The position numbers and the translations under genes are program-made. The notes beneath the pieces were generated by a model, which worked only from the letters and a program-made list of their open reading frames with translations, was not told where the DNA came from and made no database searches. A stretch of 44,367 nt of DNA from a virus, in IMG/VR virus record IMGVR_UViG_3300020185_000091, positions 1 through 44,367 of that record. The stretch is one strand, 5' to 3'. This document shows, piece by piece, positions 5,368 through 44,367 of the stretch; the first letter of the stretch is position 1, and every line of letters starts with the position of its first letter.

Positions 5368-6417
5368 ATGACTGTAACAAAGCGAGGCAAACGCTTCCAA
5401 GCCTACATCACTGTAGGCAAGGAGCGCCACCGCCGCAGCTTTGATACCAAAGTAGAAGCACTGATCTGGGAAGATCAAGTCAGGGACGCTATTACCCTTG
5501 GTAAGCCTCTTCCCAGTTCAACCCCCCAATCATCACAATCATCTAAATCTTGGTCTCTCGACAACGCTGCGTCGAGGACATGGGCTATGTATTGGGAAGG
5601 CTCTCGCTCAGAGGAGAAGGTAGCCTTTAATATGAACCGTGCTTTAAAGTACTTTGGCAAACATAAGCCTGTGGCAGACATATCGACAGAAGCTGTTGAT
5701 GATTACATCTTATTCTTGAAAGGAGAAAGATTATCCAATGCCACCATCAACCGTAACCTAGCAGCCTTGTCAAAGATGCTAACGGTATCGATGGACTACA
5801 GTAAGATCATCAAGAAGCCTAAGATCAATAGGCTAAAAGAGACCAACTGGCGTATGCGCTGGTTTACCGTTGAAGAGGTAGATCGTATCTTGCAAGTATC
5901 TAAGACCGCAGGGTATAAAGACCTCTATGACGCAGTGGCTGTTTCAGTAGACACTGGGGTTCGTCTGAACGAATTACAGGAGATCAAGGAAAAAAGCATT
6001 AGAGATGGTGGACTAATAGTCGATGGCAAAAACCACGATTGGCGGTCCATCCCCCTGACACAGAGGGCGTATGAGATACTTTCTCGCAGGGCCGAGGTGA
6101 TCAGGAATCTTGATCCTCCTGTTGACCCTACACGGCATCATGTGAGGGTGCGTCTATTCCCTGAGGGCGGGTGGTTACGCCCACAGTGGGAGCGTGTCAG
6201 GGGACTTGCCTTCTCAGAGGGTGAGCTTAACCAAGAGAAGGGTGACGATATAGTATGGCACACCATGCGTCACACCTTTGGATCACGATTGGCTCAGAAG
6301 GGTGTGACCCTTCAAGTCATCAAGGACCTAATGGGGCATAAGAGTATCCAGACCACCCTTAGATACGCAAAGCTTGCCCCTACTAATTCCAAGGATGCTA
6401 TTGCTCACTTGGAATAG
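5368..6417 (+). CDS. int: Tyrosine site-specific integrase
   Basis: 349 residues. An N-terminal arm-binding domain (about 1-45; motif KERHRRSFDTKVEA) is followed by a Ser/Gln-rich linker (about 48-62), a SAM-like core-binding domain (about 66-150) and the catalytic domain. Catalytic residues visible are R199 (TGVR), probably K221, H298 and R301 (HTMRH), H324 (MGHKS) and nucleophile Y333 (LRYAKL). It should recombine attP with a host tRNA-Leu gene. It is 6 bp downstream of the MarR-like gene, and its target region with tRNA-Leu and six arm-like repeats follows directly. The set of residues appears complete, so it is probably active. Confidence 0.95.
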   Translation: MTVTKRGKRFQAYITVGKERHRRSFDTKVEALIWEDQVRDAITLGKPLPSSTPQSSQSSKSWSLDNAASRTWAMYWEGSRSEEKVAFNMNRALKYFGKHKPVADISTEAVDDYILFLKGERLSNATINRNLAALSKMLTVSMDYSKIIKKPKINRLKETNWRMRWFTVEEVDRILQVSKTAGYKDLYDAVAVSVDTGVRLNELQEIKEKSIRDGGLIVDGKNHDWRSIPLTQRAYEILSRRAEVIRNLDPPVDPTRHHVRVRLFPEGGWLRPQWERVRGLAFSEGELNQEKGDDIVWHTMRHTFGSRLAQKGVTLQVIKDLMGHKSIQTTLRYAKLAPTNSKDAIAHLE

Positions 6418-6427
6418 TCCAGCGAGA

Positions 6428-6442
6428 GTTTACACTGTAAAC
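6428..6442. promoter_or_regulatory. Operator-like palindrome copy 8, after integrase
   Basis: Exact GTTTACACTGTAAAC, 11 bp after the integrase stop and 3 bp before the TAATAATGGACA element. Occupancy could block read-through from int toward the RNA polymerase gene. Confidence 0.8.
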
Positions 6443-6444
6443 TT

Positions 6445-6466
6445 TAATAATGGACAGTATTGTCTC
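6445..6466 (+). promoter_or_regulatory. Candidate phage promoter 1 (TAATAATGGACA type)
   Basis: TAATAATGGACAGTATTGTC followed by TC. Shares the 12-bp left half with sites at 6833, 9368 and 42949, then an inverted TGTC. The asymmetric conserved left part argues for a promoter rather than a simple operator; the TAATA start and CACTAT core of the best copy recall the T7 promoter. Confidence 0.5.
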
Positions 6467-6515
6467 TATACAACTCTTGTAGACTTTATCTTCTAGGGAT
6501 ATAGAGTAAGAAATG

Positions 6516-6552
6516 GTGGCGCGGCTGGTGGCGTAGAGCTTATCCAGTGGCG
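6516..6552. repeat. Left integrase arm-type repeats (GTGGCG x3)
   Basis: GTGGCG at 6516, 6528 and 6547, the first two within GGTGGCGCGG and GGTGGCGTAG. Same orientation as the right cluster. Confidence 0.6.
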
Positions 6553-6563
6553 CTACCCTCTAA

Positions 6564-6651
6564 GGCCTCTTGGTGGAATTTGGTATACACAAAGGACTTA
6601 AAATCCTTCGCCTTCAATGGCTTGCGGGTTCGAGTCCCGCAGAGGCTACCA
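6564..6651 (+). tRNA. tRNA-Leu (anticodon UAA)
   Basis: A full 88-nt cloverleaf can be drawn. The acceptor GGCCTCT pairs with AGAGGCT (G-U at the first pair), the D-arm is GTGG...TATACAC, the anticodon stem AAGGA/TCCTT has loop CTTAAAA (anticodon TAA), a class II variable arm has GCC/GGC stem, the T-arm is GCGGG-TTCGAGT-CCCGC, and the 3' ACCA is encoded. It lies in attP, so it probably contains the core for integration into a host tRNA-Leu gene; a complete copy would restore the host gene after integration and could also decode UUA during infection. Confidence 0.93.
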
Positions 6652-6828: not shown

Positions 6829-6832
6829 TATT

Positions 6833-6854
6833 TAATAATGGACACTCTTGTCCC
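6833..6854 (+). promoter_or_regulatory. Candidate phage promoter 2, before RNA polymerase
   Basis: TAATAATGGACACTCTTGTC then CC, 36 bp before the polymerase ATG. The palindromic part is GGACA-CTCT-TGTCC. Confidence 0.5.
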
Positions 6855-34733: not shown

Positions 34734-36071
34734 ATGACAACAATATCTACTGTTATAGGAGATGGTGCTAATACTGTTTTCACCATCCCCTTTAATTATA
34801 TGAACCAGAGTGAGGTCTTTGTTTTTGTAGCTGGTGTAGTTACAACAGATTTTACCTTCACTTCTGCAAACACAATTAACATTACTACACCACCACCTCT
34901 AGGAGCTAAAGTTACTATAGAGAGGCTGACAGCTACTACCCCCGCTGTTACGTTCCAAGAGGCTGGTTTATTAAAAGCAAGCCTTTTAAATACGGCATCC
35001 ACACAGGCTCTTTATCTAGCTGAAGAAGCTAGAGACCGTACTTTATTATCCATAAACGTATCTGGATCGACAGGGTTATGGGATGCAGAAAACAATAGGA
35101 TTTCTAATGTTGCAGACCCTGTAGATAATAATGATGTAGCTACAAAAGGATGGTCTAATACAGCATCAGCATCCAACCTAGCGGAAGCCAAATCAGTCAG
35201 AAATGAACTGTATACGCTACAGACTAGGATGAATAACTTATCCTATGGATCAACTGGTTATTCTACCTATGATGCATCAACAGGTATCTTAGATTTCTTT
35301 CTTTCAAGTGGTCCTCAAGGTGTTCAAGGTTCTACAGGCCCTACAGGTGCTACAGGCTCCCAAGGTCCCGTAGGATTAGAAGGTCCTCAAGGCCCTCAAG
35401 GTGTTCAAGGCCCTGCGGGTTCTACAGGACCTACGGGTGTTACAGGTGCTACAGGCGCACAGGGCTTAACTGGCCTACAAGGTGTTACAGGTTTACAAGG
35501 TCCTATTGGCGTCACAGGTGACCAAGGACCTACAGGTGCTACTGGTGATCAAGGACCCACAGGAGCCACAGGCCCTATTGGACCGCAAGGAACTACAGGA
35601 TTACAAGGTAGCACAGGAGCTACAGGCCCTCAGGGGCCTATAGGTGCTACAGGAGCCACAGGTTCTATTGGTCCCACGGGTGATGAAGGCCCCCAAGGTT
35701 CCACAGGCCCTCAGGGGACTATAGGTGCCGCAGGAGCCACAGGTTCTACTGGTCCTACGGGTGATGAAGGCCCCCAAGGTTCCACAGGCCCTCAAGGACC
35801 CACAGGAGCCACAGGACCTACAGGCTCCCAAGGGCCACAAGGAAACCAAGGCTTAACAGGGTCACAGGGGCCTCAGGGTATACAAGGAGAAACAGGTGTA
35901 CAAGGTTCCCAAGGACCTACGGGTAACATGGGATCAACACCTCTTGGTTTAGCTTTTGGACGCATGGGCATCACAGCCGATGGTATCCTTCAAATGGAAT
36001 ATTACGGTAGTGCAAGTGACAATGATTTTACAATCAGTTCAAATGGCTACCTTTCAGTGAGTACAGTTTAA
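34734..36071 (+). CDS. Tail fibre 1: T7-type anchor plus collagen-like shaft
   Basis: 445 residues. Residues about 1-150 carry the T7 gp17 N-terminal anchor domain (start [20 protein letters not shown], then '[18 protein letters not shown]'), which binds the tail nozzle. Residues 193-400 are 69 uninterrupted Gly-X-Y triplets, a collagen-like triple-helical shaft rich in GPQ, GAT and GPT. A short C-terminal cap (401-445; [20 protein letters not shown]) ends the protein without a receptor-binding domain, which suggests that the next gene supplies the tip. The next ATG lies 1 bp after the stop. Confidence 0.9.
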
Positions 36072-37991: not shown

Positions 37992-38306
37992 TTGACTAAA
38001 ATATTTTATCACAAACTCACCCGACAAGGTATTATTGTTGAGGATGATGAACCAATAAGTAATTGGAGTGAGTATCAAGAAACAGAACCACCAATTACAC
38101 AATATGAATTGGATGAGATGTCAAAAAACTATCGAAAGCAGCGGGATAACGAATTAAAACGCACAGACTTTATGATGCTTCCAGACATGAACCCAGATCA
38201 AGATTTGATTGACTACAGACAATCTCTCAGGGATGCGACTAGTCACCCAAATTGGCCTCTAGAAACACCTGACATAGTGTTTAGGGGTAATGTATTAAAT
38301 GACTAA
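37992..38306 (+). CDS. Tail-fibre assembly chaperone-like protein
   Basis: 104 residues from TTG 37992. The C-terminal pattern YRKQRDNELKRTDFMMLPD (about 47-65) then DYRQSLRDATSHPNWPLETP (about 73-92) matches the 'R..RN.LL..tDw...D..YRq.LRD.p...nwP' module of fibre assembly proteins (DUF4376/XkdW type). Its place just after the fibre genes supports a chaperone role. It overlaps the halogenase start by 8 bp. Confidence 0.7.
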   Translation: MTKIFYHKLTRQGIIVEDDEPISNWSEYQETEPPITQYELDEMSKNYRKQRDNELKRTDFMMLPDMNPDQDLIDYRQSLRDATSHPNWPLETPDIVFRGNVLND

Positions 38307-39465
38307 AGTAGCAGTAGTAGGTAGAGGAACGGCTGGTTGTATGTCGGCAGCTTACTTCACGCAATGGTCTGGTGTTGAAGTGGATTGGTACTTTGATCCG
38401 AACATAAAACCACAGGCGGTAGGGGAGGGGTCCAACCTAACCCTACCCTCACGCTTACAACAGTGTGTTAACTTCTCACCCAGAGACTTTGATAAAGTAG
38501 ATGGGACTATTAAGACAGGTATTTACAAGCAGGGATGGGGTAAAACCAATACCCCCTTTTTGCATGACTTCCCAAGCCCAGCAACCTCTATACACTTCAA
38601 CGCTTTGAAGCTCCAAGACTATGTGGAAGATAAGATTTCAAAGAACGTAAACATTAAAAGAATGAATGTGGATGTATCAAACCTTGATGCAGATTTCATC
38701 TTAGACTGTTCTGGAAAACCAAAAGATTATGAAGACTGTAAGTTATCGCCTTACATACCAGTAAACTCTGTATATGTGACGCAGTGCTATTGGGACTTTC
38801 CAAGGTTTAACTATACACTGACCATTGCTAGACCATATGGCTGGGTATTCGGTATCCCTCTAAAGAACAGATGCTCTATCGGGTATATGTACAACAAAGA
38901 CATCAACACTTTGGAAGAGGTACAAGAGGACGTAAAACATATATTTGAACAGTACAATCTAGTGCCTAGTAAAGATACAAATGCGTTCTCATTTAAGAAC
39001 TACAAAAGGCGTGAAAATTTAAAAGGCAACATAGCTTACAATGGGAACGCTTCATTCTTTTTAGAACCGTTAGAAGCTACATCTTTTGGTAACGTAGACG
39101 CTATAAACGTACAGGCGGGTTACCACTGGTTCTCAGGACATCCGAAAGACTTAACAGAGCGGAGATACAATGCAGTAATAGATGCAACTGAAAACATCAT
39201 TATGCTTCATTACTACGCTGGCTCTGAGTTTGTTTCAGACTTTTGGGAATACGCAGAGGAAAGAGGAAGGCGGTGCGTAGAAAACGCAGACCCAAGCCTT
39301 TCATATATGATTAAAAATTCAAAGAAACCCTCAGGACTAGGTTCTTACAAAGATACCTTCAATCATCCAGATGAAATGTCTATTGAACTAGATGGTTTGT
39401 ACTATTCTTGGTGGGAGGGTTCTTTTGCACAAAACGTAGAAGGACTAGGTTTAAATTGTGGATGA
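38299..39465 (+). CDS. Flavin-dependent halogenase (tryptophan-halogenase family)
   Basis: 388 residues, shorter than typical bacterial tryptophan halogenases (about 500-540). FAD-binding GRGTAG (8-13), GEGS (42-45), the catalytic-type lysine K72 in GTIKTGIYKQGW (aligns with K79 of PrnA), GWVFGIPL (181-188, consensus GWxWxIPL with Phe for the second Trp) and FLEPLEATS (254-262) are all in order. The family uses FADH2, O2 and halide to form HOCl/HOBr/HOI, bound by the lysine, for halogenating aromatic substrates. Phage members exist, such as the marine cyanophage halogenase VirX1. Its fibre-lysis location and overlaps on both sides suggest late expression. Substrate unknown. Confidence 0.88.
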   Translation: MTKVAVVGRGTAGCMSAAYFTQWSGVEVDWYFDPNIKPQAVGEGSNLTLPSRLQQCVNFSPRDFDKVDGTIKTGIYKQGWGKTNTPFLHDFPSPATSIHFNALKLQDYVEDKISKNVNIKRMNVDVSNLDADFILDCSGKPKDYEDCKLSPYIPVNSVYVTQCYWDFPRFNYTLTIARPYGWVFGIPLKNRCSIGYMYNKDINTLEEVQEDVKHIFEQYNLVPSKDTNAFSFKNYKRRENLKGNIAYNGNASFFLEPLEATSFGNVDAINVQAGYHWFSGHPKDLTERRYNAVIDATENIIMLHYYAGSEFVSDFWEYAEERGRRCVENADPSLSYMIKNSKKPSGLGSYKDTFNHPDEMSIELDGLYYSWWEGSFAQNVEGLGLNCG

Positions 39466-39679
39466 CGTAGAAACCCGACTAGCCAAAACAGAGTGGCTAA
39501 TAGAACGACAAGATCAAAACATTAGAGAGCTATACGACACCACAGAGGACATGAAGAAATGCCTTAGGGGTATCCATGAGGTCTTAATACAAATTAAGTG
39601 GTTTGTACTTGGTGGTGCAGCTTTATTCTTTGCAGACCAAATAGGTCTAGGATACATATTTAAAATATTTGGAGTTTAA
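39458..39679 (+). CDS. Small membrane protein, holin-like
   Basis: 73 residues from GTG 39458, overlapping the halogenase by 8 bp. A charged coiled-coil N-terminus (about 1-45) leads to one C-terminal membrane segment (about 48-70; WFVLGGAALFFADQIGLGYI). The position next to the predicted holin suggests an accessory lysis role, unproven. Confidence 0.6.
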   Translation: MDDVETRLAKTEWLIERQDQNIRELYDTTEDMKKCLRGIHEVLIQIKWFVLGGAALFFADQIGLGYIFKIFGV

Positions 39680-39685
39680 TAAACA

Positions 39686-40090
39686 ATGTTGCAAGCACTA
39701 GCTACGGTGCTTCCAAACATTCTGAAGATCGTTGATAAAAGCATACCTGATAAAGCAGGGGCGGCATTAGCCAAGCAAAAGATTGAGCTTGAGCTAGTGA
39801 CCGCTGCTAACGAAGTCAACAAGATGCAAGCAGAGACCAACAAAGTAGAAGCAGCCCATAGAAGCATATGGGTTGCTGGTTGGCGTCCAGCTATTGGTTG
39901 GACATGCAGTATAGGCGTCTTCTGGGCATTTGTGGGTCACCCCTTTGCCTCATGGATCGCAGTAATGTTTGGAGTACCTTTATTTTTATTACCTGAGGTT
40001 CCTATGGACGCTCTGTTTGAGCTTGTCATGGCAATGTTGGGTCTCGCGGGTCTCAGGACCTTCGATAAGATGAAAGGCACAGCTAAATGA
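39686..40090 (+). CDS. Holin, 3-TM type
   Basis: 134 residues. N-terminal amphipathic helix and coiled coil (about 1-55), then the family signature WVAGWRPAIGWTCSIGVFWA (about 60-79), a second membrane stretch WIAVMFGVPLFLLP, and a final hydrophobic segment with LGLAGLRTFDKMKG at the end. Fits the Holin_3TMs family, which permeabilises the inner membrane to time lysis; here it would release or activate the amidase at 10552. Its stop overlaps the next ATG (ATGA). Confidence 0.82.
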   Translation: MLQALATVLPNILKIVDKSIPDKAGAALAKQKIELELVTAANEVNKMQAETNKVEAAHRSIWVAGWRPAIGWTCSIGVFWAFVGHPFASWIAVMFGVPLFLLPEVPMDALFELVMAMLGLAGLRTFDKMKGTAK

Positions 40091-43315: not shown

Positions 43316-43383
43316 CATGAAACCGCAAGCCTATAAGAACAAGGGGTGCCGGTAGATACTACATCTGCAGGGGGAAGCTTTGG

Positions 43384-43398
43384 GTTTACACTGTAAAC
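43384..43398. promoter_or_regulatory. Operator-like palindrome copy 11
   Basis: Exact GTTTACACTGTAAAC; counterpart of copy 1. Confidence 0.8.
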
Positions 43399-43453
43399 TT
43401 TGGGCGGTTGCTATTCATTATAAATAGGCGCGCCTACGTGTAGGGCCTCATGG

Positions 43454-43468
43454 GTTTACAGTGTAAAC
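43454..43468. promoter_or_regulatory. Operator-like palindrome copy 12
   Basis: Exact GTTTACAGTGTAAAC; counterpart of copy 2. The palindrome is intact although bases right after it (43470 and 43472) differ from the left copy. Confidence 0.8.
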
Positions 43469-43657
43469 TTTTGAACCGTGTCTTTATTTGAAATTGCATC
43501 TATGCGTTTTTTCTTTGGGAACCGTTAGAACATGAGGCCTATGGTTAGAACATAAAGGTTGCACATGTGTAATATATAGAGTAGTCTGTTTTTAACGGCG
43601 GGAGCAATACGTCGTTATCAACCTTAAGGTGATTAACCACGATCACCGCTTAACAGA

Positions 43658-43672
43658 GTTTACAGTGTAAAC
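43658..43672. promoter_or_regulatory. Operator-like palindrome copy 13
   Basis: Exact GTTTACAGTGTAAAC, 26 bp before ATG 43699; counterpart of copy 3. Intact although the 20 bp upstream are the most diverged part of the leader. Confidence 0.82.
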
Positions 43673-43698
43673 TTTCAAACAAAGATTGGATCAAGATC

Positions 43699-44367
43699 AT
43701 GACAACCGAAACAAAAGCAACCGGCACCACATTGACAGTTCAACGCGCGGTCAAGGCCTTTATCAAAAACAACACAACAAAGGCCGACGCTATCCTAGTG
43801 GCCGTTCAAGCCCATTTGAAGATTGAAAGCAATCAAGGGGAAGATCAGTTTAAAACCTTGATAGATGCCATAGGTGCCGCCGGTAAAGAGGCAAGCAAGG
43901 CCGCTGGCGCTGAAGATAAGATACCGTCAAGCATTAAGCAGATGACCACTACAATACGTCGCGTATTTAATGATGAAGGCTATGGCGTCCAGTACATCTT
44001 AAATGCAGATTGTATGTACAAAATTCGTCAAGCATACGGCAAGATCACCGACGCTGCAAAGGCCGCAAAAGAGGCCGACAAAACAGATAAGGCCGATGCA
44101 TCAAAAGAGGAAAGCACAGAATTGAAAGGCTTGAACATATCTGAGGCCTTGAAAAAGCTTCAGACAACCCAAAGCTTGATCAATAAAGAGGGGTCGCGCG
44201 TCCTGCAAAATGAGTTGACTGCTCAGATTGAGGCCTTAGTTGAGACCTTCAATTCGCGCCTAGGCAATGAGTTGACCGACGCCAAGCGCAAGCAAGATGC
44301 AACCATTGCCGCGATGGAAACCGAAAAGGCCGACGCAGCAATCAAGGCCGCAAAGCAAGGTCCAAGC
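43699..44367 (+). CDS. Lys/Ala-rich early protein, right copy (partial, runs off window)
   Basis: The first 223 codons of a second version of the gene at 358; the 3' end lies beyond the window. Five amino-acid differences against about 48 nucleotide differences. Codons about 112-168 are identical at nucleotide level, while other parts differ at many third positions, giving a mosaic pattern. Function unknown. Confidence 0.85.
   Translation, partial: MTTETKATGTTLTVQRAVKAFIKNNTTKADAILVAVQAHLKIESNQGEDQFKTLIDAIGAAGKEASKAAGAEDKIPSSIKQMTTTIRRVFNDEGYGVQYILNADCMYKIRQAYGKITDAAKAAKEADKTDKADASKEESTELKGLNISEALKKLQTTQSLINKEGSRVLQNELTAQIEALVETFNSRLGNELTDAKRKQDATIAAMETEKADAAIKAAKQGPS

Follow-up and report, generated by a model that had tools for sequence, protein, structure and literature searches.

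A compact halogenase-type gene that is exchanged together with a tail fibre tip and a tail assembly chaperone in a T7-like, integrase-bearing phage

For more than 15 years, phage "tryptophan halogenases" have figured in the literature as auxiliary metabolic genes (AMGs) for which no substrate is known. Those nearest to the gene described here form the phage family PHROG 2928 / T4-GC 212 (S-RIM4 RW110999_041, S-SSM7, S-ShM2, S-SSM5), several members of which are compact (about 360–390 aa); the phages listed are mainly T4-like myoviruses that carry the gene in varied places. Among the solved flavin-dependent halogenases (FDHs), the iodinating VirX1 of cyanophage Syn10 (PDB 6QGM) is a full-length viral enzyme of 531 aa. 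PrnA, RebH and PyrH have loops for the amino-acid part of free tryptophan. The bacterial enzymes BrvH and Xcc4156 (PDB 6FRL, 6Y1W; about 490–510 residues in the solved chains) are short in these same two regions, have an open site and do not halogenate free tryptophan; peptide substrates have been proposed for them (PMC5945002, PMC7336383). Halogenation of peptides is known for the peptidyl-Trp halogenases SrpI, which brominates a C-terminal Trp, and MibH, which acts after proline hydroxylation (PMC12615548); these FDHs resemble the peptide or protein role proposed below but differ in having small RiPP precursors as substrates and no phage or fibre context.

The gene that we describe belongs to the PHROG 2928 / T4-GC 212 family and, unlike the listed T4-like members, sits in a marine, T7-like phage with an integrase, where it is exchanged with the fibre tip. 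It was found in a 44.4-kb IMG/VR virus record, analysed over its full 44,367 nucleotides (henceforth the window), that encodes a T7-like RNA polymerase, a DNA polymerase A, a T7-type terminase, ThyX, a ribonucleotide reductase and a Xer-like tyrosine integrase followed by a tRNA-Leu. The polymerase, the integrase and the adjacent tRNA bear out the original prediction of a temperate T7-like phage. By RNA polymerase and terminase, the nearest named phages are Roseobacter phage CRP-125 (36% and 61% identity, respectively) and pelagiphages, values low enough to indicate a phage without a close cultured relative.

The halogenase open reading frame (38299–39465; this gene, its motifs and its neighbours are all on the plus strand) encodes 388 aa. 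Its ATG start codon overlaps the stop of the upstream gene by 8 nt, and the GTG of the next gene lies inside its 3′ end. The protein matches Pfam PF04820 (Trp_halogenase; E = 6.7e-28, 98.2 bits against a cut-off of 21) and PHROG 2928 "tryptophan halogenase" (E = 1.2e-67), and a sequence search of the PDB returned RebH, PrnA and VirX1; together these matches make a chance resemblance untenable. An NCBIfam search found no family. Relatives in viral contigs numbered 32 in a scan with the single protein and at least 176 in an alignment-based scan, and pairwise dN/dS against close relatives was 0.09–0.12, so this is a real gene under strong purifying selection. In GenBank, 64 phage records matched, the best being S-RIM4 (46% identity over 99% of the query). 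The 60 of these 64 that were listed are mostly T4-like cyanophages or myoviruses, alongside pelagiphage HTVC008M, Campylobacter phages and fragments of marine or faecal origin, and none of the 60 is a recognisable T7-like podovirus. Among 84,980 prokaryotic species (one genome each), scanned with two conserved peptide patterns, no close homologue was found; the only match was a distant one in Actinomadura (25%). We had considered a bacterial origin of the gene and set it aside on this single hit, with the proviso that "phage-restricted", as used here, refers to relatives that share the two motifs.

The catalytic signatures were examined over about 100 compact homologues; RebH positions come from profile alignments and were read with a tag offset of +20 that was checked at K79. 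The FAD-binding GxGxxG motif is GRGTAG (residues 8–13; 38320–38337), with G8 and G10 present in 101 of 102 homologues. K72 (38512–38514) corresponds in the profile alignment to the catalytic lysine K79 of RebH; it is Lys in 98 of 101 sequences and Arg in the other three, all second-copy paralogues. Further downstream, GWVFGIP (residues 181–187; 38839–38859) occupies the place of WxWxIP as a WxFxIP variant (W182-V-F184-G-I-P), so that the strict motif is not matched; W182 is invariant (102/102) and the Phe at 184, in place of the second Trp, is nearly so (101/102). The order of FAD motif, lysine and GWxWxIP-like motif, the short length and the Trp-to-Phe change are all as originally predicted. 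FLEPLEATS (residues 254–262; 39058–39084) holds the catalytic glutamate and the halide-loop region. E256, aligned with E346 of PrnA and E357 of RebH, is Glu in 100 of 102 homologues and Asp in two, P257 is present in all 102 and A260 in 98. The tunnel motif FX[DE]PX[EFL] is matched by FLEPLE (254–259), and Fx.Px.Sx.G only loosely (F254, P257, S262, G264). Ala260 and Ser262 stand where RebH has Ser and Gly in the profile alignment; in BrvH, which is active, the second halide-loop position is likewise a Ser. Family-wide, then, substitutions affect two FDH signature positions, F184 for Trp and A260 for the RebH Ser.

In the putative substrate pocket, HDF (residues 89–91; 38563–38571) aligns with HPF of PyrH and HAF of 9luq, a motif class described before (PMC8269204); H89 is kept in 90 and F91 in 92 of the 102 homologues. 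W371 (39409–39411), the equivalent in the profile alignment of the indole-stacking W466 of RebH, is Trp in 93 of 102. The probable aromatic stacking positions of the indole pocket, W371, H89 and F91, are therefore present.

An AlphaFold model built from a 22-sequence alignment had a pLDDT of 89.3 and a pTM of 0.88, and its best Foldseek matches in the PDB were FDHs: AbeH, PyrH, BrvH, SttH, Xcc4156, RebH, PrnA and VirX1 (E-values between 2e-23 and 1e-20, with AbeH, PyrH and BrvH at about 1e-23; TM about 0.7, TM query 0.73). As modelled, then, the protein has the FDH fold, and the original assignment to this superfamily agrees at the level of sequence, profiles and predicted structure, including the comparison with PrnA and VirX1 that had been put forward as a check. 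VirX1 shares with it a viral origin, the fold (Foldseek 1e-20) and the catalytic Lys and Glu, but with 17% identity in the fold alignment and a phmmer E of 3.9e-7 the two are remote and not close relatives. With PrnA, RebH and PyrH the protein has in common the fold, the FAD motif, the Lys and Glu and the aromatic pocket residues. It is much smaller, however, than the usual FDHs (388 aa versus about 500–550). A lid region is missing (PHROG 2928 HMM positions about 96–141 are unmatched in nearly all compact members), the C-terminal region is reduced, and its loop for holding the amino-acid portion of Trp cannot be aligned and shows little conservation in the compact family. The loops that bind Trp by its carboxylate and its amino group (RebH 156–166 and the 442–467 region; PMC7336383) are lacking. 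Sequence comparison therefore points to a compact, probably open site that keeps the aromatic-stacking positions H89, F91 and W371 and has no clamp for free Trp. BrvH and Xcc4156, among the best fold matches, have an open site and short loops as well, differing in bacterial origin and length and, for BrvH, in an intact WxWxIP.

The most conspicuous departure from the FDH pattern, F184, calls for caution because WxWxIP has been suggested to prevent monooxygenation (PMC8407142, PMC5945002). The protein might accordingly be an FAD-dependent monooxygenase or other oxidase in which halogenation has been lost, the Trp-to-Phe change letting the substrate reach the flavin for aromatic hydroxylation, and the near-universal WxFxIP of the compact homologues fits such a loss. 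Against this, the catalytic Lys and Glu, which hypohalite chemistry needs, are conserved, and WxWxIP is not strictly required, variants being found in proven halogenases such as Bmp5 and the motif being absent from some active FDHs (PMC8407142). We regard a pure oxidase as unlikely.

Upstream of the halogenase lie a proximal tail fibre with a T7 tail-fibre N-terminal domain (PF03906, 3e-33) and collagen repeats (34734–36071), a distal, Gly-rich, collagen-like fibre (PF01391; 36073–37974), whose C-terminal tip is the part that travels with the halogenase, and a Phage_tail_APC tail assembly chaperone (PF16778, 7.3e-8; tail fiber assembly PHROG 4912; 37992–38306). Downstream follow a 73-aa ORF (39458–39679) and a holin with three transmembrane segments (PF11351, 9.5e-17; PHROG 3427; 39686–40090). 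The original placement of the gene between fibre and lysis genes is thus right in outline but had overlooked the chaperone and the small ORF that intervene. The window ORFs scanned, which take in only part of the small ones, include no recognised flavin reductase; neither a biosynthetic gene nor a 2OG oxygenase was seen in the window, and candidate promoters and terminators in the halogenase region were no more frequent than in shuffled sequences.

Clustering of the neighbours of 92 halogenase loci showed that the podovirus-like ones share the same arrangement of fibre, Phage_tail_APC chaperone and, directly downstream, halogenase. After removal of sequences more than 90% identical, 18 chaperone-linked loci remained (19 with the window), with 13 different types of downstream gene. 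In a maximum-likelihood tree all 19 chaperone-linked rows, the window included, fell into one clade of 20 rows (SH-aLRT 97), the twentieth being a contig-edge case. A single clade with so many downstream contexts indicates that the linkage to the chaperone arose once and survived the turnover of what lies beyond it. A copy beside fibre genes in a temperate T7-like phage had been called uncommon at the outset; this holds for the phage type, as judged from the 60 GenBank records, but the linkage to fibre and chaperone is a feature of the whole clade.

Comparison with close relatives of the phage showed what is exchanged. A scan with the terminase identified five sister contigs (L095, L096, L097, L100 and L101) with terminases 97–99% and holins 98–100% identical to those of the window. 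In L095, L096 and L097 nucleotide identity is 91–96% from base 39459 onward, and in L100 and L101 homology begins at exactly the same base (92–94%, then 88–89%); by blastn, it is within the first bases of the 73-aa ORF that sister-phage homology resumes. The halogenase is absent from all five; where enough upstream sequence is available, the chaperone and the window-type tip are missing too, and other tip genes stand in their place. Locus L004 shows the converse: its halogenase is 93%, its chaperone 82% and its tip 66% identical to those of the window, while its core proteins reach only 25–59% (terminase 59%, holin 34%). In scans for the neighbouring proteins, relatives of the window tip (3/3), of the chaperone (6/6) and of a second tip type (5/5) all lay inside halogenase contigs; for a third tip type the halogenase accompanied 13 of 13 strong matches and none of the weaker full-length ones. 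Tip, chaperone and halogenase thus behave as one exchangeable cassette, within which the halogenase co-occurs and is co-transferred with the fibre tip and the chaperone.

The sisters have in the halogenase slot a conserved protein of 165–173 aa (MTxEETWxAFIxEWxRR...), beside a different tip protein (L097:2475–2972, L096:536–1054, L100:1245–1739, L101:179–673).

This co-transfer is circumstantial support for the modification of virion aromatics, and our preferred, tentative explanation, which we place somewhat short of probable, is that the product is a compact enzyme of the halogenase type, dependent on FADH2, that belongs to a receptor-binding cassette and modifies an aromatic group on a large target, most likely the fibre tip. 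A host flavin reductase would supply FADH2, the flavin hydroperoxide (FAD-OOH) would make hypohalite from bromide, chloride or iodide and this would be passed to K72, and a macromolecule held in the open site would receive the halogen on one of its aromatic side chains. Among possible targets the late-made tip of the fibre, or else another protein of the virion, is the most likely, and its stability or receptor binding would be altered. The fold and catalytic residues, the compact open site, the purifying selection and the transfer as a cassette all speak for this explanation. Weighing against it are the replacement by F184 of the Trp thought to block monooxygenation and by A260 of the Ser of most FDHs, the want of a recognised flavin reductase among the window ORFs scanned, the single origin of the tight chaperone link and the different location of the gene in T4-like relatives (for example beside the major head gene, talC or gp33). 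The association of tip and halogenase could also be only physical, since recombination at the ends of fibre cassettes could carry a neighbouring gene along. A more specific version is possible but doubtful, namely that the phage-restricted compact clade consists of fibre-tailoring enzymes that halogenate or hydroxylate tip aromatics during assembly, the virion then bearing post-translationally halogenated protein and relying on this chemistry for host recognition.

The linkage with the tip would also be explained if the enzyme altered an aromatic on the host surface and thereby blocked the adsorption of progeny or rival phages. In other temperate phages fibre genes and receptor-altering genes are often linked, and this phage encodes an integrase. 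The halogenase, however, lies in the late structural region and not near the integrase, inspection by eye revealed neither a signal peptide nor a membrane segment in the protein, and aromatic surface receptors are not known for such phages; we find this role quite improbable. As fibre regions recombine freely, the protein might instead be a catalytically idle passenger of these cassettes, or a partner that contributes only its fold, and the three paralogues with Arg at the catalytic Lys would be in keeping with that. A dN/dS of about 0.1 and active-site residues that are near-invariant over about 100 sequences make such idleness very improbable.

Two candidate targets among the C-terminal aromatic residues of the tips were considered and rejected. 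The aromatic run that ends the window fibre (..LRIWWL) is not conserved, relatives ending in RIYHQ, RVYWG, RIYFS, KVFFS or YRQPQ. Among full-length proteins of the third tip type, 11 of the 12 that come with a halogenase end in VRY[SA] and those without one mostly in VRIS or similar, but the Tyr near the C-terminus does not track cleanly with the enzyme: the bearers form one clade, so that the pattern amounts to one event and is not evidence for the target, and one of them, L191, ends in VRIS.

The customary reading of these genes in the literature, in which "tryptophan halogenase" is counted among cyanophage AMGs (PMC10452541), would have the enzyme halogenate a small molecule (indole, a tryptophan derivative or a pigment) to yield an antibiotic or signalling metabolite. 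Protection by an antibiotic has been suggested, and called speculative (PMC2984593), and VirX1 accepts many small aromatics (PMC8407142). A carbamoyltransferase adjoins the halogenase in L056, L057, L063, L064 and L067 and is nearby in L065, and a jumbo-cyanophage cluster with a carbamoyltransferase and 2OG oxygenases has been proposed to serve secondary-metabolite synthesis or capsule decoration (PMC7824862). In larger phages outside the chaperone-linked clade, 11 of 21 records have a 2OG-Fe(II) oxygenase within 2.5 kb of the halogenase versus 4.4 expected (about 0.001 in a rotation test in which the records are related and contigs were treated as circular). This excess could also be counted towards the oxidase alternative; a partnership of the window halogenase with such an oxygenase was nevertheless discarded, given the related records, the circular treatment and the gene content of the window, and we use the statistic as context only. 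The oxygenase and carbamoyltransferase neighbourhoods leave a metabolic role possible for those larger phages. For the window, the exchange with a fibre tip and not with metabolic genes, the want of biosynthetic genes, the missing amino-acid clamp regions and the failure of the motif-limited scan to find a close cellular homologue make a small-molecule substrate somewhat unlikely.

The superfamily and its phage members were already known, and what is new is the compact, fibre-linked clade; in the open-access literature we found no paper linking a halogenase to tail fibres or to a podovirus. Inheritance and transfer of this large, apparently phage-specific clade with a tip and a chaperone shift the question from host metabolism to the chemistry of the virion or the receptor, which can be addressed by looking in virion proteins for the isotope patterns of halogens. 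If this reading is true, virus particles would be halogenated enzymatically, and biocatalysis would gain a source of small halogenases with an open site for peptides or proteins. Our results suggest, but do not prove, that some phages chemically alter the very structures by which they recognise their hosts.

Several minor features were also observed. Some loci hold two or three paralogues of the halogenase (L030, L070, L074, L080, L086 and L089–L091, and also L045, L050, L075, L087 and L088), sometimes in tandem in the larger phages; the Arg at the catalytic lysine in the second copies of L086–L088 hints at divided or lost catalytic roles. In L081, L082, L092, L076, L031 and others the halogenases stand among 2OG-Fe(II) oxygenase-like genes, and PHROG 274, whose label "DNA endonuclease V" may be wrong, takes in proteins resembling 2OG oxygenases. 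In the window itself, the two ends (1–1026 and 43343–44367) match at 93.6% identity over 1,026 bases, which reflects either a terminal redundancy pieced together from two strains or overlapping strain variants of the metagenome. The palindrome GTTTACA[C/G]TGTAAAC occurs 13 times (positions 42, 112, 317, 1393, 1839, 3192, 4363, 6428, 13260, 22504, 43384, 43454 and 43658), mostly in the early region, and three of the copies recur through the end repeat; the motif resembles operator or stoperator sequences for a lysogeny repressor. The integrase and the full tRNA-Leu(TAA) gene that follows it (5368–6651) form a likely attachment region, and a 22-nt direct repeat (6443–6464 and 6831–6852) flanks the tRNA.
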